Assembly: GCF_009720365.1 (NCBI RefSeq)
Contig: NZ_ML769321.1
Span: 194,718-258,717, forward strand
Direction of reading: 5' to 3'
Origin: Catellatospora paridis
GTDB taxonomy: Bacteria > Actinomycetota > Actinomycetes > Mycobacteriales > Micromonosporaceae
Length of the DNA: 64,000 nucleotides
Positions within the stretch are counted from its first letter, which is position 1, and each line of letters begins with the position of its first letter. A model generated the notes under the pieces. The model had not been told where the DNA came from. It ran no database searches and worked only from the letters and a program-made list of their open reading frames with translations. Positions 52,891 through 60,446 of this stretch are shown piece after piece. The position numbers were made by a program, and so were the translations under genes.

Positions 52891-53901
52891 TCAGCGGGCG
52901 GCGTAGAGCGCCTCGAGTTCCCGGCGCAGCAGCGGGGTGCTCTGCTGCTCGACCAGCTTGAGCAGCCGGTCGGCTTCGGCGAGGGTCATCGCGTGCTCCC
53001 AGCGCCTGCGGAACAGGTAGGCGTCGAGCTCCTGATGCCTACGGCAGAAGTGGTCCAGATTGCGCAGCAGCTGAGCGCGCATGATCCGCAGCGCCACGGC
53101 GGGGTCGGGGTGGGCCAGCGGGTGCACCTGGTGGTAGTTGATCGCCGTGGTGCTCACCGAGAAGCCCACCCCGGCCCGGTGGAGGCGGTAGCTCAGGTCG
53201 GTGTCCTCCAGCCCCCAGCCGGTGAAGGACTCGTCGAAGCCGCCGACCTCCTTGACCGCGGCCCGGCGTACCGACAGGTTCGCGGTCGTGGCCAGCGCCC
53301 AGCTGAACCGGAAGTCGACCAGCCCGGTGCCGTAGGCCTCGACGATCGCGTGGTAGTTGTCGGGTTCGTCGCCGAGCTCGGTGCGGGCGAACGCCGCCAC
53401 GGGGTCGGCGGCCAGCTCGCCCGGTTCGAGCAGGCGGATCGGCTCGGCCAGCCGCTCGGCGTCGCCGACCCGGGCGACCAGCCGGAGCAGGTCCTGCTCA
53501 CCGAGCGGGAGGATGCCGGGCCGCCACCAGGTCAGCGCCCGCCGCTTCCAGCCGATCGTGCCGTCGCGGCCGCCCGTCGCCGCCGCGACGTGCTCGGCGA
53601 CGAACCCCGGCCCGGCCATGCGGTCGTCGTCGATGAAGACGATCAGTTCGCCGTCGACGCGGGCCAGCGCGGTGTTGCGGGCCGCGGCCCGGCCCCGGTT
53701 GTCCTGCGTGACCAGCCGGATGTCGAGCCGGTCGCGGAAGGGTGCGACCACGTCCTCGACGCCGCCGGCGGTGCCGTCGTCGCAGAGCACGACCTCGAAA
53801 CCGGGGTACGTCTGGACGAGCAGCGACTCGAGGGTGAGCGCGAGGTATTCGCGCTTGTCGCAGGTCGCCATCACCAGGCTGACCGGGAGCCGTTCTACCA
53901 T
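52891..53901 (-). CDS. Family 2 glycosyltransferase
   Basis: The 336-residue protein is a GT-A fold glycosyltransferase: VSLVMATCDKREYLALTLES at the start, VVLCDDGTAGG, then AAARNTALARVDGELIVFIDDDR with the metal-binding DDD, and the acceptor motif GWGLEDTDLSYRLHRAG. No membrane helix is present, so it acts in the cytoplasm or at the membrane face. It is the last gene of a six-gene minus-strand operon, and its ATG at 53901 overlaps the P450 stop by seven bases. The sugar donor and acceptor are unknown. Confidence 0.9.
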   Translation of the reverse strand: MVERLPVSLVMATCDKREYLALTLESLLVQTYPGFEVVLCDDGTAGGVEDVVAPFRDRLDIRLVTQDNRGRAAARNTALARVDGELIVFIDDDRMAGPGFVAEHVAAATGGRDGTIGWKRRALTWWRPGILPLGEQDLLRLVARVGDAERLAEPIRLLEPGELAADPVAAFARTELGDEPDNYHAIVEAYGTGLVDFRFSWALATTANLSVRRAAVKEVGGFDESFTGWGLEDTDLSYRLHRAGVGFSVSTTAINYHQVHPLAHPDPAVALRIMRAQLLRNLDHFCRRHQELDAYLFRRRWEHAMTLAEADRLLKLVEQQSTPLLRRELEALYAAR

Positions 53902-55298
53902 CCGAGTCTCCACCGCTCGTCGCCGTACAGGTCCACCATCTCGTTGAGGTCGCCGTCGACCGGGTCGCGGTGCGGGGGCGCCGCGGTGCGCGGGTGGGCC
54001 ACGACGGCCACCGGCCCCTTCGGTGACATGAGCAGGCCGACCTCGCGGGAGATCGGGCTGCCGGGCACGGGGACGAGCACGTAGCGGCTGAGGATCGTAC
54101 CGAGCACGATCTTCATCTCCAGGTCGGCGAAGGCCGCGCCGATGCACACGTGCGGGCCGGCGCCGTAGGGCAGGTACTCGTACCGGCCCGGGTCGGCGGT
54201 CGCCCAGCGCTCGGGCCGGAACCGCAGCGGTTCAGGGAACCGGGCAGGGTCCCGGTGGGTCACGTACTTGCTGGTCACCACCTGGCATCCGGCGGGGATC
54301 TCATGCCCGCCGAGCACGGCCGGGGCGACCGCGATCCGGGAGGTGTTCGGGCCGGGCGGCAGCAGCCGCAGGGTCTCCTTGAGGGTGCGGTCGAGCACAG
54401 CGGACCCGGCGCACTCCTCGGGGGTGCGGCCGCCGACGTCGGCGAGCGCCTCGTCCAGGTCGGATCGGTGCTGCGAGAGCAGGATCAGTGCCCAGCACAG
54501 CGTGCTGGAGGAGGTCTCGTGCCCGGCGACCAGCAGCGTGGTGAGGTGCCCGACGAGCTGGTCGTCGGACAGGCCCCGGCCGTGCTCGTCGCGGTTCTCC
54601 AGCAGCGACTGCAGCAGGTCGGGCGGGTGGCCCGCGGTGCGCCTGGCGTCCACGATGGACGCCAGCGCGTCGTCGAGCCGCCGGATGACGGCGAGCAGCC
54701 GCCGGTACGGGGTGCCGGGCAGGTCGAACGGGAAGTAGCGGATCGACGAGGCGAAGTAGCGCAGCGCCAGCATCTGCTGGACCAGGCGTCCGATGGAGTC
54801 GGCGTCGCGGGCGATGTCGACGCCGAAGAAGCACCGGCAGGCGATCCGCAGGGTGAGGCGGCGCATGCTGGCGGTCAGGTCGAACGCCTGCCCGGGGGTC
54901 CAGGAGTCGACCTCCTCGGCGGCGAGGCGGGCGATGACCTCGGCGTGCCGGCCCATCGCCTGCGGCCGGAACGACGGCGTCACGGTGTGCCGGGCCTCCC
55001 GGTGCGCGGGGCCGTTCATGTTGAGCAGCCCGATGCCGCGGCGCACGCGCCGGATCCGGGCCGGGATCGCGTACTCCAGGACGGTGTGGAACCGGTCGCC
55101 GTCGGTGAGCACGGCCCGGTTGTGCTCGGCGCCGAACACGAACACCTGCCGGCCGTCGCCGTGCACCAGCCCACTGACCTGGCCGAAGTCGTGGTGCAGC
55201 CGCGCGGTGTAGGCGACCGGGTCCGCGGCGTAGGCGTGGGCGTTGCCGCGCCGGCCCAGCCAGCGGTGCGGCGGCGGGCCGGGCACCGGACGGCTCAT
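53895..55298 (-). CDS. Cytochrome P450
   Basis: The 467-residue protein has the P450 hallmarks: I-helix LLVAGHETSSSTL, the ExxR of the K-helix (LKETLRLLPPGPN), the PERW segment (FRPERWATADP) and the heme loop YLPYGAGPHVCIGAAFA with ligand C385. It has no N-terminal membrane anchor, and the pattern is nearer the CYP102/CYP110-like or CYP4-like bacterial group than the CYP105 type. A C-terminal extension of about 40 residues follows the core. The ATG at 55298 overlaps the upstream stop (ATGA). No ferredoxin gene is adjacent, although an iron-sulfur flavoprotein heads the same operon and could feed electrons (inference). Confidence 0.93.
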   Translation of the reverse strand: MSRPVPGPPPHRWLGRRGNAHAYAADPVAYTARLHHDFGQVSGLVHGDGRQVFVFGAEHNRAVLTDGDRFHTVLEYAIPARIRRVRRGIGLLNMNGPAHREARHTVTPSFRPQAMGRHAEVIARLAAEEVDSWTPGQAFDLTASMRRLTLRIACRCFFGVDIARDADSIGRLVQQMLALRYFASSIRYFPFDLPGTPYRRLLAVIRRLDDALASIVDARRTAGHPPDLLQSLLENRDEHGRGLSDDQLVGHLTTLLVAGHETSSSTLCWALILLSQHRSDLDEALADVGGRTPEECAGSAVLDRTLKETLRLLPPGPNTSRIAVAPAVLGGHEIPAGCQVVTSKYVTHRDPARFPEPLRFRPERWATADPGRYEYLPYGAGPHVCIGAAFADLEMKIVLGTILSRYVLVPVPGSPISREVGLLMSPKGPVAVVAHPRTAAPPHRDPVDGDLNEMVDLYGDERWRLGW

Positions 55299-56392
55299 CC
55301 GGCGTACCAGCCGGCGTGGGGCCGATCGACGTCGGCGTCGGCTCCCCGCCGGAACGCCGCCGCGGCGAACTGCCCGGCTGGTGCCTGGAGCGCCGCGACG
55401 GTCGGCATCGGCAGGTAACGCCGGAACAGCCCCGCGAACGCGGTCGCGAAGGCGCTGGTGGCCAGCGGGCCGGGCTCGGCGCGCGTGCCGCCCGGCATGG
55501 TCAGCCCGAGCGCGAAGTAGGTCGTCCAGTACTCGAACAGGGTGAGTTCGCTGACCGCGGCGGGCAGCGCGGGGTCGGCGGCGGCGAGGTCGGCGTAGAA
55601 CCGCTCGGACAGGTCTGCCTTGCGCAGGCCGTCGGGGAGCCTGGTGTCGGCGAACTCGCCGAGCCAGGTGAGCTCGCCCTCGTCGCCGCAGAAGAACCAC
55701 TCGGCGTGCACCCGCATCCAGGACGCCCATGGCACCCAGACCAGGCCATCGCCGGCCACGGCGGTGTCGAAGTCGACGGGCGCGCCGTCCGCGGCGGGGC
55801 ACGCGGAGTGCCGCAGCCCCTGGAAGCCGTTGCCGGTCAGGCTCAGGTGGTCGTCGTGCTCCACCAGGTTCGGCACGGTGACCACGGTGGCCCGCCCGGT
55901 GCCGCGCAGGTGCGCCGACAGCGCGAGATCGTCCGCGCCGGTCGGGTCCGTGACGCTCGCGGCGAAGTCGAGCGCCGCCTGCCTGGGCAGCACGAGGCCC
56001 TGCGACGGGGTGTACACGTCGACCGCGCGCGCCCAGGACCAGCCCTGCCAGGCGGCGGCGCGGACGAGGCCGGCGGTGCGCGAGCCCCACTCGCAGAACA
56101 GGCTGACCGCGTCGTCGGGCCGGGCCCGTACGGCCCGGTGCAGCTGTTCGGCGAAACCGTCGCAGGGCAGGACGTCGTCCTGCAGCACCAGGTGGTGGGT
56201 CGCGTCGGCGCCGACCGCGGCCCAGGCCCGCACGGCGTTGCCGAGATTGCCCCGCCCGGGTGCGCCGGTGTCGACGACCACGGCGGGGGAGAGCTTCACG
56301 AGCTGCTCGGCGAGCACCTGGGCGCGGTCGACCCGCGCGGGGTGGGTCATGATCACTGTCGACAGGCGTACGTCGCCGTCATTGTCCGGCAT
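55295..56392 (-). CDS. Glycosyltransferase-like protein of unknown family
   Basis: The 365-residue protein starts RLSTVIMTHPARVDRAQVLAEQL like a nucleotide-sugar enzyme and has LVLQDDVLPCDGF, a DxD-type element, and an acidic-His stretch VPNLVEHDDHLSLTGN. I see a GT-A-like N-terminal half but cannot assign a family; the C-terminal part is unusual. It overlaps the preceding glycosyltransferase gene by 14 bp and the P450 gene by four, so it is firmly part of the operon. It may glycosylate the same product as its neighbours or be a degenerate relative (inference). Confidence 0.65.
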   Translation of the reverse strand: MPDNDGDVRLSTVIMTHPARVDRAQVLAEQLVKLSPAVVVDTGAPGRGNLGNAVRAWAAVGADATHHLVLQDDVLPCDGFAEQLHRAVRARPDDAVSLFCEWGSRTAGLVRAAAWQGWSWARAVDVYTPSQGLVLPRQAALDFAASVTDPTGADDLALSAHLRGTGRATVVTVPNLVEHDDHLSLTGNGFQGLRHSACPAADGAPVDFDTAVAGDGLVWVPWASWMRVHAEWFFCGDEGELTWLGEFADTRLPDGLRKADLSERFYADLAAADPALPAAVSELTLFEYWTTYFALGLTMPGGTRAEPGPLATSAFATAFAGLFRRYLPMPTVAALQAPAGQFAAAAFRRGADADVDRPHAGWYAG

Positions 56393-57599
56393 GGCTGCTC
56401 CTGGTGATCCGGTGCAGGGCGACGGCGCGCTCCACGTGCTCGACCATCGCCTGCGCGCCGTCGGCGGCCCGGAGGGTATGCGCGAAGGCGGTGTGCGCCG
56501 CCCGGTCCGGCGGGGCGAGCATCGACCTGATCTTCGCGGCGATGGTCTCGGCCGGGTCGTCCGGCTCGACGGTCGCGCCGAGGCCGAGGTCGGTGATGCG
56601 GCCCGCGTTGCCGCGCTGCTCGGCGGAGTGCGGCACGAACACCAGCGGCGTGGCGCAGAGCAGGCCCTCGATCATGGAGGAGTGGCCGCCGTGCACGACG
56701 GCGGCGCTCGCGCGGCCCATGAGGTCGACCGCGTCGTGCCGGAACCCCGCGATGTCGACCTCGGCGTCCCCGGCCACGGCGCGCACCTGCGCGGCGAGCG
56801 CCGCGGTGCCGTCGCCTTCGACGCCGAGCGTCACCGCCAGGGGCACGCCGAGCCCGCGGGCGGCGGCGACCACGCGAAGCAGGTCCTTGTCCCCGGCCCC
56901 GCTGCCGCCGAGGGTGATGTTGAGCAGCGGCGCAGGTTCGGCGCGCACCGGCGCGGCGGGCAGCTCGACCGGGACCAGGGCGCCGATGTGGCGGATCTCG
57001 GAGACCAGGCTGGTGACCAGTCCCATCGTCTCGGCGGGCACATCGGACAGCGGGTCGAGCAGGGCCAGGTCCGGCACCAGCATCGCGTCGCCGAGCACCT
57101 TGCGGGAATGGGCGTCGGCGACGCCGAGCTGGTCGAGGGTGATGAGGACCTCGGGCAGCACGGCGTGCATCGGGTGGCGAAACAGGCGCAGGTTGTGGCA
57201 GGTGACGCTGGGCAGCCCGCGCATCGAGGCGGCCACCGACGCGGTGTTGCGCATGTCGCTGACCACGACGTCGGGGCCGAAGTCGTCGATGGCGCGCAGC
57301 TCGTCGGCCAGGCAGGTCTCGACGTAATCGGGGCTGGCGAGCCGGGTGCGGGCGAACGCGCGCAGCTCGGTGACGTCGTTCATGCCGCGCCAGGCCGGCG
57401 CGGGCCCGATCTCCTCGATGCCGACCCACGGCAGCCCGGCCCGCTTGACGATCGGGCGCACCTCCTCGTGCGCGGCGACGGCCACCTGGTGGCCGGCCAG
57501 CTGGAACCGCTGCGCGGCGGTGCGCATCCGGGTGACGTGGCCGAGGCTGGAGCGGCTGAACGCCACGAACAGGACCCGCAACGGGGGCCGGGTGGTCAT
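56379..57599 (-). CDS. Family 1 glycosyltransferase (MGT/GT-B type)
   Basis: The 406-residue protein is a GT-B glycosyltransferase of the macrolide/antibiotic type: RVLFVAFSRSSLGHVTRMRTA at the start, VVSDMRNTASVAASMRGLP in the acceptor half, and the nucleotide-sugar loop SAAVVHGGHSSMIEGLLCAT then PLVFVPHSAEQRGNAGRI in the donor half. Enzymes of this type attach sugars to small molecules or lipids. The ATG at 57599 overlaps the exporter gene stop (ATGA). Located in an operon with an MFS exporter and a P450, it probably decorates a natural product or lipid (inference). Confidence 0.9.
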   Translation of the reverse strand: MTTRPPLRVLFVAFSRSSLGHVTRMRTAAQRFQLAGHQVAVAAHEEVRPIVKRAGLPWVGIEEIGPAPAWRGMNDVTELRAFARTRLASPDYVETCLADELRAIDDFGPDVVVSDMRNTASVAASMRGLPSVTCHNLRLFRHPMHAVLPEVLITLDQLGVADAHSRKVLGDAMLVPDLALLDPLSDVPAETMGLVTSLVSEIRHIGALVPVELPAAPVRAEPAPLLNITLGGSGAGDKDLLRVVAAARGLGVPLAVTLGVEGDGTAALAAQVRAVAGDAEVDIAGFRHDAVDLMGRASAAVVHGGHSSMIEGLLCATPLVFVPHSAEQRGNAGRITDLGLGATVEPDDPAETIAAKIRSMLAPPDRAAHTAFAHTLRAADGAQAMVEHVERAVALHRITRSSHAGQ

Positions 57600-58825
57600 G
57601 CGTTTGCTTCCTCCATGGTGAGCGTGCGCGGGGCGCGCACGGCGACGACCAGGCTGGCGAGCGCGCAGAAGGCGAGCAGTGCCAGCGCCTGCCGCGGCCC
57701 GACGACCTCGGTGAGCCAGCCGCACAGCAGCGTGCCCAGCGGCACCGACCCCCACGCGATCATGCGGCCGACCGCGTTGACCCGGCCCTGCAGGTTCAGC
57801 GGCGTCACCATCTGCCGTACGGAGATGCCGACGACCATGAAACAGGTGTGCGCGGTGTTCCAGCACAGCAGCGCGGCCAGGGCGACGGCCCAGTTCGGGG
57901 CGGCGGCGTAGGCCAGCAGCAGGCAGAGGTCGGCCCCGATCAGCCACCGGGCGGTGCCGACCGGCGGCGCGGTCTTCAAGCGGCGGGCCGCGAGCGCGCC
58001 GAGCAGCGCGCCGATCCCGGAGGCCGTCATGATCCATGCCATCCGGTAGTCGTCGGTGGCCAGGCCCAGCGCCCGTGAGGCGAAGACGACGAGCATGCCG
58101 TACACCGCGCCGGCGCTGATCCCGACGCCGACGTTGACGATCGTGTACACGCGCAGCAGCGGGTGGCCGCCGATGAACCGCAGGCCCGCCCAGATCGCGC
58201 CCGGCTCACGTGCCCGGCCGGGATCGGGCCGGGCGGCGGCCGGCAGCCGCATCATCGCGATCAGCAGCGCCGACACCAGGTAGCAGCCGGCGAGCAGGGC
58301 GAACGTCGGGCCCAGGCGCAGCGCGTCGAGCAGGAAGAACCCGACCGGCGCGGCGACCGACGTGACGACCGTCGCGGCCATCCACAGGTAGCTGTTGGCG
58401 CGGAACACCCCGGCCCTGCCGACCACGGACGGTATCGCCGCGGAGCTGGCCACCTCGAACCACACGTACACGGTGGCCGAGGCGAACCCGACGGCGATCA
58501 GGGTGAGCGGCGGCGCGCCGACGGTGGCGAGCAGCAGGGGCACGCACAGCAGCACCGCGGCGTTGCCGGTCTCCATCCAGACCATGACCCGGGTCGGAGA
58601 GGACCGGTCGACGACGGCCCCGGCGAACATGCCGAACAGCAGGAACGGCAGCACGTTGACCGCCGACGCCAGGGCAGCCACGAGCGCCGACCCGCTGGCC
58701 TGGTAGACGTACAGCGGCAGCAGCACCCACAGGATCGAGTACGCCACGGTGGAGGCGAACTTGCTGGCGACGAGCAGGGCGAGCCCGCTGCCGGCCGGGG
58801 ACTCGGCCTCGGCGATCGCGGTCAC
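57596..58825 (-). CDS. MFS transporter (12-helix exporter type)
   Basis: The 409-residue protein has about twelve hydrophobic helices, motif A-like GAVVDRSSPTRVMVWM between helices 2 and 3, and PLNLQGRVNAVGRMIAWGSVPLG in the second half, as in MefA/EntS-type exporters found in metabolite clusters. The GTG at 58825 begins three bases after the stop of the iron-sulfur flavoprotein gene, and its end overlaps the glycosyltransferase start. It may export the product of the operon or give self-resistance (inference). Confidence 0.9.
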   Translation of the reverse strand: MTAIAEAESPAGSGLALLVASKFASTVAYSILWVLLPLYVYQASGSALVAALASAVNVLPFLLFGMFAGAVVDRSSPTRVMVWMETGNAAVLLCVPLLLATVGAPPLTLIAVGFASATVYVWFEVASSAAIPSVVGRAGVFRANSYLWMAATVVTSVAAPVGFFLLDALRLGPTFALLAGCYLVSALLIAMMRLPAAARPDPGRAREPGAIWAGLRFIGGHPLLRVYTIVNVGVGISAGAVYGMLVVFASRALGLATDDYRMAWIMTASGIGALLGALAARRLKTAPPVGTARWLIGADLCLLLAYAAAPNWAVALAALLCWNTAHTCFMVVGISVRQMVTPLNLQGRVNAVGRMIAWGSVPLGTLLCGWLTEVVGPRQALALLAFCALASLVVAVRAPRTLTMEEANA

Positions 58826-58828
58826 GGG

Positions 58829-59452
58829 TCAGTTGGTCCTTCCGACGCGGCGCTCGACCTCTTCGGGGCGCGGCAGCCTGGTCCCGGACTCGATCAGGGC
58901 GGTGCCGACGTCGATGATCCGGTCGACGGTGCGGCGCAGCGCGTCCATGCCCTCGGTGTCGGACAGGATGCCCTGCTCGCCACCGGAGTGGATGGTCACC
59001 GGGAAGCCGCTGCCGACCAGGATGAAGCGGTTGAGCAGCAGGTTGTGCAGCAGTTGGGCGTGCACGTCGAGATGGCCGTAGCGCCGGCCGACGACGATGG
59101 CGGCGCCGATGGTGTTGGTGAGCGGCCGGGTGAACCGGAGGTGGCCGACCCCGGCGCGCTCGATGAAGGTCTGCATGAGCGAGGACAGCCCGAACCCGTG
59201 GACCGGCGCGGCGAACACGACGGCATCGGCCTCGATCATCGCGGAGACGACCTCACCGACACTGTCGTCGACGGGGCAGGGGTCGGGCCGGGAGTTGCAC
59301 GCGCCGCAGTCGCAGGTCAGGACCCGTTTCTCGGCCAGGTTGATGATGTCGGTCCGGCAGCCGCGCAGCTCGGCATGGGAGGCGACCTCCTGCGCGGCCA
59401 GCCAGGTCGAGCCGCGGCTGCGTTCGGATCCGTTGATCGCCAGTATCTTCAT
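58829..59452 (-). CDS. Iron-sulfur flavoprotein / NADPH-dependent FMN reductase-like
   Basis: The 207-residue protein has a flavodoxin-type fold with the FMN phosphate loop INGSERSRGSTW (residues 6-17) and AAPVHGFGLSSLMQTFIERAG, which lines the flavin. Four cysteines, C47, C49, C52 and C59 (TCDCGACNSRPDPCP), form a compact cluster like that binding [4Fe-4S] in archaeal and bacterial iron-sulfur flavoproteins, although C-x-C-x2-C-x6-C is slightly different. AGGTGA lies upstream of the ATG at 59452. It is the first gene of the six-gene operon and could supply electrons to the P450 or reduce a metabolite (inference). Confidence 0.87.
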   Translation of the reverse strand: MKILAINGSERSRGSTWLAAQEVASHAELRGCRTDIINLAEKRVLTCDCGACNSRPDPCPVDDSVGEVVSAMIEADAVVFAAPVHGFGLSSLMQTFIERAGVGHLRFTRPLTNTIGAAIVVGRRYGHLDVHAQLLHNLLLNRFILVGSGFPVTIHSGGEQGILSDTEGMDALRRTVDRIIDVGTALIESGTRLPRPEEVERRVGRTN

Positions 59453-59772
59453 GCTCACCTGATCATCTGTGCGGAGGCTCGCTGTGTGCGCCTCGTCGCG
59501 CGATGTCAGCATTTCCCCGTGCGCCGACTGCTCGTTCCGATGAGGAGTCTAGGTTCCGCAACGCCGCCGACGACGGCACGCATGTGCATGTCTCAAAGCG
59601 TGGACTGATGGGACCGAGGTCGCCATGGGGCCCCGCTGGTGAGTTCACCCGGCGGTGGACAGATCACCGACGTAACGGTGGGTGACCGTCATTTCACGGT
59701 GACCATGGAGGTGCGGCGTCGGCCCACCGGGCGGCGCGGCGGGGGGCAGACGCGTTGACGGGGGGTTCGGGC
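59453..59772. other. Intergenic region with inverted repeat
   Basis: I see no gene in these 320 bases. GGTGACCGT (59681-59689) and ACGGTGACC (59696-59704) are inverted repeats with one mismatch and a six-base spacer, and a related ACGGTG lies just before. This could be an operator for one of the two divergent genes. The operon promoter is not obvious. Confidence 0.45.
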
Positions 59773-60275: not shown

Positions 60276-60446
60276 TCACCAGGCGTATCGGACGAGCCAT
60301 TCGTCGGGGTTGTAGGCGTGGTCCGCCGGGGTCGTGGCCGGTCGTTCCTCGACCATCTCCTCGGGGCGGACCTGCTTGGGCAGGGTGCCGAAGCGGGCCC
60401 GGCGGGCGGTCTCGGCACCGTCGGGGCGCTGGGGTGCGGTACGCAT
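60276..60446 (-). CDS. Very small protein, 56 residues
   Basis: An ATG at 60446 with AGAGGAG upstream opens a 56-codon frame. The protein is hydrophilic, with a Gly/Ala/Arg-rich start (RPDGAETARRARFGTLPKQ), a basic-acidic middle (VRPEEMVEERPATTP) and an aromatic end (AYNPDEWLVRYAW). There is no membrane or signal segment. It lies 43 bp behind the NmrA-like gene on the same strand and is followed by the 28-residue gene. The ordered C-terminus with Tyr and Trp residues invites the idea of a peptide that is modified or that binds a partner, but I know no family and claim none. Confidence 0.6.
   Translation of the reverse strand: MRTAPQRPDGAETARRARFGTLPKQVRPEEMVEERPATTPADHAYNPDEWLVRYAW

Follow-up and report, generated by a model that had tools for sequence, protein, structure and literature searches.

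The subject of this analysis is a run of six genes in a 64,000-nucleotide stretch of the Catellatospora paridis genome (Micromonosporaceae; contig NZ_ML769321.1, positions 194,718 to 258,717; C14:194718-258717 in our numbering). That whole stretch is called the window here, and its coordinates are used below. All six open reading frames (ORFs) lie on the minus strand; beginning with gene 1, they are:

58829..59452, minus strand: gene 1, an SgcG-like flavin mononucleotide (FMN)/[Fe-S] flavoprotein, predicted to be a dehydrogenase of 2-amino-2-deoxyisochorismate (ADIC); 207 amino acids (aa); FMN_red, 96 bits
57596..58825, minus strand: major facilitator superfamily (MFS) transporter, predicted product exporter; 409 aa; MFS_1, MFS_3, and TIGR00900 under its cut-off
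56379..57599, minus strand: GT-B glycosyltransferase (GT), MGT/MJ1255-like; 406 aa; TIGR01426 and TIGR00661, both under cut-off
55295..56392, minus strand: GTx, a GT-A-like protein with a QDD motif that is invariant in a 13-sequence alignment; 365 aa
53895..55298, minus strand: cytochrome P450; 467 aa; PF00067, 223 bits
52891..53901, minus strand: GT2 glycosyltransferase; 336 aa; Glycos_transf_2, 72 bits; chondroitin-synthase-type PDB matches

The genes are tightly packed: the junctions are, in order, a 3-bp gap followed by overlaps of 4, 14, 4 and 7 bp (an alternative GTG start for the GT2 ORF is possible upstream, at 53913). The initial annotation, made from the sequence alone, had described just this arrangement, and the ORF coordinates and Pfam/NCBIfam names agree with it: FMN_red, MFS_1, P450 and Glycos_transf_2 all score above the Pfam cut-offs for their respective proteins. 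(A technical aside: the GT-B protein was scanned for NCBIfam families with an N-terminal extension, and the Pfam scan did not cover its true frame.) Ratios of nonsynonymous to synonymous substitution rates (dN/dS) for the six genes, relative to five other Catellatospora genomes, range from 0.075 to 0.366, the flavoprotein having the lowest value in four of the five comparisons (C. tritici is the exception). Because the gene order recurs in other species and all six genes have dN/dS values within that range, the operon is more than a chance assembly.

How widely is it spread? The operon is present in 13 of 250 sampled genomes of the same family: six Catellatospora, the window genome included, and seven of the Glycomyces type. 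By tblastn with the operon proteins, 11 of these 13 loci (10 of the 12 other than the window) have the full six genes in the same order. Close homologues of GTx (at least 62% identity) are found in 13 of the 250, six of the window's genus and seven of another, and a GTx match of any strength occurs in 39; a close P450 (at least 71%) occurs in 11 of the 250, every one of them operon-bearing. (The P450 survey scored at most six candidates per genome and is reported at E <= 1e-60 only; at that threshold 13 of 250 genomes have a match, and the two beyond the close 11 are only 38-39% identical.) That the six genes form a single tailoring-and-export unit, as had been proposed, is strengthened by this co-inheritance and by the confinement of the close P450 to operon-bearing genomes; the companion expectation, that all six would be found together in relatives, holds for 11 of 13 operons and fails for the P450 and GT2 genes in the other two. 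We regard it as very probable that the six constitute one conserved pathway. A scan of named genomes with two short patterns, which diverged operons may escape, found 11 loci: in Catellatospora vulcania, C. sichuanensis, C. coxensis and C. tritici, in six Glycomyces, and in one metagenome-assembled genome (MAG). One Glycomyces genome that lacks the operon (G011) has a lone GT2 orthologue (76%; L129:9596-10570), probably a remnant. The flanks are variable: apart from the operon and a gene pair described below, C6 and C7, each neighbour is common to at most five of the 13 loci (gene borders in the relatives' loci come from a simple ORF caller, and neighbours were mostly named by eye).

Gene 1 gives the clearest indication of chemistry. 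The flavoprotein is predicted to combine an FMN-reductase fold (FMN_red) with four cysteines suited to an [Fe-S] cluster, spaced C-x-C-x2-C-x6-C. In tblastn searches of plasmid records, SgcG of Streptomyces globisporus C-1027 (fourth of 51 records) matches it at 51.9% identity over 91% of the query, and in the alignment all four SgcG cysteines are kept. The substrate of SgcG, an enzyme in the biosynthesis of the antitumour antibiotic C-1027, is ADIC, and its product is 3-O-enolpyruvoylanthranilate (OPA). Matches in 397 sampled genomes of the order, a sample that took in four of the 13 operon genomes, fall off in steps: operon copies at 76% identity or more in four genomes, an SgcG-like group at 45-55% and 166-207 bits in 15 genomes, and beneath it only matches of at most 49 bits, in 24 genomes. 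A tree with four longer outgroup rows places the operon and SgcG-like flavoproteins together (support 100/100) against four weak relatives; with three outgroup rows, two of them cut short, the operon proteins are united at 100/100 and the SgcG-like rows are split. (L120 was left out of the flavoprotein trees, of which an earlier one carried no outgroup, and L030-L040 were kept out of all trees as duplicates of L049-L059.) Gene 1 is very probably an SgcG-family enzyme; its activity would presumably be the oxidation of ADIC to OPA.

The Glycomyces-type loci supply a second link. In all seven, the flavoprotein gene is directly preceded by two co-oriented genes, one for a chorismate-binding enzyme (C6) and one for a glutamine amidotransferase of class I (C7), with overlaps of 4 bp. 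The C-1027 record has sgcG, a phenylacetate-CoA-ligase-family gene, sgcD and an amidotransferase gene side by side. When C6 is compared with plasmid records (tblastn), sgcD ranks first, at 44.6% identity over 95%, although other records have slightly better E-values. A 28-protein tree, from which the truncated L049 was left out, gathers the seven C6 and eight SgcD-like proteins into one clade (98/98), apart from two TrpE; in a tree with five TrpE (three added) and four long or odd rows removed (L049, L073, L076 and L120 were left out), support for C6 with SgcD is 93/95. C6 scores under the TrpE cut-offs, as does SgcD. An SgcD-type rather than a TrpE-type C6 is favoured by these comparisons, but not proven. 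PabB-type (4-amino-4-deoxychorismate) chemistry was considered for C6 and rejected: C6 has the motif PIAGT, where L073, a PabB-like protein encoded in the window genome, reads PIKGT.

What, then, of the scaffold? The initial annotation had noted that the window holds no scaffold synthase, and had taken the substrate to be a host metabolite or lipid, or else something made elsewhere. Indeed none of the genome's 12 ketoacyl-synthase and 20 condensation-domain matches lies in the window (terpene cyclases and RiPP maturases, for ribosomally synthesized and post-translationally modified peptides, were not searched for); the condensation domains on the window's contig are at 20-31 kb. For these marker domains of polyketide synthases (PKS) and nonribosomal peptide synthetases (NRPS), "no scaffold synthase" is correct as far as the window goes. 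In wider comparison it is misleading: gene 1 groups with SgcG, a scaffold-forming enzyme, and the operon of the Glycomyces-type relatives starts with C6 and C7, so that a pathway that does no more than decorate some metabolite or lipid of the host is disfavoured. Because gene 1 is SgcG-like and the relatives' operon is headed by an SgcD/TrpE-type enzyme with its amidotransferase, the scaffold is most likely chorismate-derived.

In the benzoxazolinate route, as set out in the available text of PMC10098953, SgcD forms ADIC without loss of pyruvate, SgcG is the FMN-dependent [Fe-S] enzyme that forms OPA, and ring closure is assigned to a putative acyl-AMP ligase. A search for that ligase (XsbC type) in the 13 operon genomes at E <= 0.001 gave no match in 11 and no close homologue in any; the two weak matches align with part of the query, at 27 and 30% identity and with 35 and 26 bits. 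By comparison, among nine SgcG-like loci that lack the operon (19-kb stretches, from nine of 15 such genomes), a benzoxazolinate-type ligase is present in eight, and SgcD with an amidotransferase in five. Since no close ligase is found in the operon genomes, the operon appears to share its early steps with the benzoxazolinate route and apparently not its ring closure, having P450, GT and MFS genes instead; benzoxazolinate itself was accordingly rejected as the product. Elsewhere in the family (genus g4; L119, L124-L126) there are conserved clusters with an SgcG-like gene and an acyl-AMP ligase, and with no SgcD within the fetched stretch.

From these comparisons of sequence we propose that the operon encodes a compact, chorismate-derived pathway to an exported glycoside derived from ADIC and OPA, and we assign this reading a probability of roughly 0.58. 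The steps would be: 1) Chorismate is converted to ADIC, in Glycomyces by the SgcD-type synthase and amidotransferase at the operon head, and in Catellatospora by an enzyme acting in trans, which may be of PhzE type. 2) The SgcG-like flavoprotein would oxidise ADIC to OPA. 3) The ligase being absent, the ring would not be closed, and either OPA itself or an anthranilate formed from OPA would be oxidised by the P450. 4) Glycosylation would be the work of the GT-B and GT2 enzymes, and perhaps of the GT-A-like GTx. 5) The MFS protein would export the glycosylated product. What the sequences show directly is the gene families, the operon and the joint occurrence of its genes; the substrates, the sequence of steps, the product and the source of ADIC in Catellatospora are inferred from these.

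A number of observations weigh against this proposal. In the flavoprotein tree with four outgroup rows, the operon and SgcG-like proteins form two neighbouring groups (78/68 and 85/81) rather than a single mixed one, and the spacing between the first two cysteines is one residue shorter in the operon flavoproteins than in SgcG. An approximately unbiased (AU) test does not reject a tree in which C6 is joined with TrpE (p 0.139), and the PIAGT motif is common to C6, SgcD-like and TrpE proteins, so that C6 may make anthranilate rather than ADIC. In G. tenuis (L039) and the MAG (L040) the operon is reduced to flavoprotein, MFS, GT-B and GTx genes; P450 and GT2 are absent from the operon, and the two genomes have no GT2 at E <= 1e-20 and no P450 at E <= 1e-60. 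Finally, there is no SgcD-type gene in any of the six operon-bearing Catellatospora genomes, that of the window included; the PhzE-type gene offered in its stead is also present in five Catellatospora that lack the operon, and beside it no phenazine genes were recognised by eye.

The supply of ADIC in Catellatospora is, in our judgement, the weakest step of the proposed route. A dedicated SgcD elsewhere in the Catellatospora genomes was looked for and rejected, the best matches being of TrpE type at 42-45% or weaker. In five of the operon-bearing Catellatospora the best C6 match is of TrpE type (44-45%); C. tritici (G133) has weaker matches only. In G000 and G051 this TrpE lies in a trp-type operon, and the G000 copy scores above the TrpE cut-offs. 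The window genome also encodes, on another contig, a PhzE-type protein of 636 aa (L074:9286-11196, minus strand), with 532 bits to PDB 3r74-3r76, which we take to be PhzE. A similarly weak match to C6 occurs in 11 of 11 Catellatospora genomes (six were read, namely the window genome's and five at 74-98% identity, and the other five are presumed to be alike); PhzE-type enzymes were read in four of the six operon-bearing genomes. Directly behind the C. vulcania operon stands a truncated PhzE-like gene (L049:13504-14454, minus strand) that retains the C-terminal part and the amidotransferase and is 74% identical to the copy in G133, which like that in G016 is intact; it hints at an earlier presence of such a gene beside the operon. 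There is a precedent for borrowing: the xsb cluster lacks SgcD and, according to the available text of PMC10098953, obtains ADIC from a PhzE homologue of a phenazine operon. A more prosaic function is suggested by three Catellatospora (G133, G016, G118) whose best matches, at 110-118 bits versus 247-255 in the other eight, fall short of TrpE level: because PhzE-like genes were read in two of these, G133 and G016, the PhzE-type enzymes there may make anthranilate for tryptophan, a further count against a PhzE-type supply for the operon.

Anthranilate is also the heart of the most serious competing explanation, which we consider unlikely but by no means negligible: the SgcD-like pair would make anthranilate, the flavoprotein would act on some other quinonoid or aromatic substrate, the product would be a glycosylated anthranilate or hydroxyanthranilate, and Catellatospora would draw on housekeeping TrpE. 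The AU test is lenient toward this scheme, and no alignment residue distinguishes ADIC synthases from anthranilate synthases. It would also explain easily why Catellatospora operons that lack the synthase pair keep the other six genes, if the TrpE of the trp operon (L072) substitutes. However, the trees favour joining C6 to the ADIC synthase SgcD; the known substrate of SgcG, the enzyme with which the flavoprotein is grouped, is ADIC; and C. tritici bears the operon with no TrpE-level match to lean on.

An improbable second alternative has the operon modify a larger scaffold that is synthesised elsewhere, such as a RiPP or the product of an NRPS or PKS; an OPA-like group, or some other, would then be one of the building blocks, as in C-1027. 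Known SgcG products are, as far as the available published text goes, building blocks on bigger molecules, and the window genome does have NRPS and PKS domains outside the window. An ATP-grasp ligase and a NodU-like carbamoyltransferase adjoin the operon in three Glycomyces (L052:1173-4114, L055, L056) and in C. coxensis (L051:14740-17908), and possibly extend the pathway. Set against this are the variability of everything outside the eight genes, the failure to find a close acyl-AMP ligase, and the operon's possession of its own exporter. (The ATP-grasp ligases of L051 and L052 are 50% identical; in C. coxensis, AurF-like, SbnB-like and ornithine-carbamoyltransferase-like genes adjoin the ATP-grasp gene at L051:17959-20947.) That the genes modify a lipid of the host or a glycan of its cell surface, the flavoprotein simply helping the P450 with its redox chemistry, is most improbable: GT2, GT-B and MFS genes are generally known from surface-glycan clusters too, but chorismate-amidating genes overlap the operon in seven of 13 loci, the nearest annotated relatives of the flavoprotein are of SgcG type, and so patchy a spread ill suits a core surface component, so that the idea is set aside on the SgcG and SgcD links.

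The tailoring enzymes are less informative. The GT-B protein has PDB matches to UDP-glycosyltransferases of the OleD/CalG type, mostly over its C-terminal part. GTx, which the initial annotation could assign to no family, has indeed no significant sequence match in Pfam (best E 0.023), in NCBIfam or in the PDB. Its predicted structure, at a mean predicted local distance difference test score (pLDDT) of 60, is GT-A-like in its N-terminal part and helical in its C-terminal part, and a Foldseek search of the model returned one match at E <= 0.001, a list whose silence on other folds carries no weight; the protein looks like an orphan GT-A-type transferase. It differs from the GT-A enzymes mannosylglycerate synthase and collagen galactosyltransferase GLT25D1 in its helical C-terminal part, in the want of a significant sequence match, and in the modest confidence of the model. 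Membership in a family with an unrelated role, which would have told against a single pathway, is not indicated: the model, weak as it is, is GT-A-like, and several distant GTx paralogues sit in biosynthetic clusters. Searches of plasmid records gave no match for GT-B and weak or generic matches for GTx, P450 and GT2. The best NCBIfam match of the P450 is NF050147 (ApyO), at 282 bits under a cut-off of 525; a RiPP reading of that match was rejected on this score and on the variability of the flanks, in which no adjoining gene but C6 and C7 is conserved in more than five loci. As a separate matter, Catellatospora and a relative have YcaO/TOMM-type (thiazole/oxazole-modified microcin) RiPP clusters with a GTx paralogue, a flavoprotein, a nitroreductase and a GT-B-like protein (L041:4759-12895, L042, L043, L047); a Cys/Gly-rich precursor was read in L041-L043, and the GT-B-like protein, named by eye, has no Pfam match.

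Upstream of the operon the alignment of the Catellatospora loci reveals one further feature:

59581..59596, minus strand: conserved block TTGAGACATGCACATG 5' of the operon, kept with some changes in five of six Catellatospora loci

It is a possible operator or promoter element. A 56-aa ORF behind an NmrA-like gene (60276-60446, minus strand) has an identical counterpart in G129 and one of 84% identity in C. vulcania.

How does the operon compare with known systems? With the benzoxazolinate cassettes (SgcD, SgcG and acyl-AMP ligase of C-1027; xsb and pbz of the benzobactins) it shares the SgcG-like FMN/[Fe-S] dehydrogenase and, in Glycomyces, the SgcD-like synthase and amidotransferase, and the missing local ADIC synthase of Catellatospora parallels xsb; it differs in having no close ligase that could be found and no conserved NRPS or PKS partner, and two or three GTs, a P450 and an MFS gene instead. 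The ring A pathway of paulomycin (pau), as presented in the available text of PMC4425429, likewise builds an aromatic ring from ADIC, for which oxidation and glycosylation are proposed, and its cluster contains two GTs, but it proceeds by a proposed isochorismatase, Pau19, to trans-2,3-dihydro-3-hydroxyanthranilic acid (DHHA) and by its own dehydrogenase, and has sugar-biosynthesis genes in a cluster of 61 kb; on an SgcG-like route the enolpyruvate would be retained, and the operon has six to eight genes. The phenazine and pyrrolobenzodiazepine branches (PhzE; tilivalline, limazepine) depart from the same ADIC branch point (PMC10098953, in its available text), but no phenazine or NRPS genes were recognised at the operon, and the window genome's PhzE-type protein is encoded on another contig. 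No description of the operon was found in the literature searched, which covers only part of published work. A published genome survey was, by the available text, probed with the ligase XsbC (PMC10098953, section 8); as the operon has no such ligase in its vicinity, it would have escaped that survey.

A bolder version of the proposal can be entertained tentatively, at somewhat less than even odds: that the products are a new class of natural product, exported glycosides of OPA (or of P450-oxidised OPA) on an ADIC branch that skips ring closure, fashioned in part by an orphan GT-A-like family and, in Catellatospora, from ADIC borrowed from PhzE. SgcG-type chemistry is so far known from benzoxazolinate building blocks. 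If the proposal is true, the ADIC-to-OPA branch would feed a second, ligase-free class of products from only eight genes, a set small enough to be expressed whole; it would give the GT-A-like GTx family a testable function, and it would provide a natural example of a pathway that does without a first enzyme of its own.

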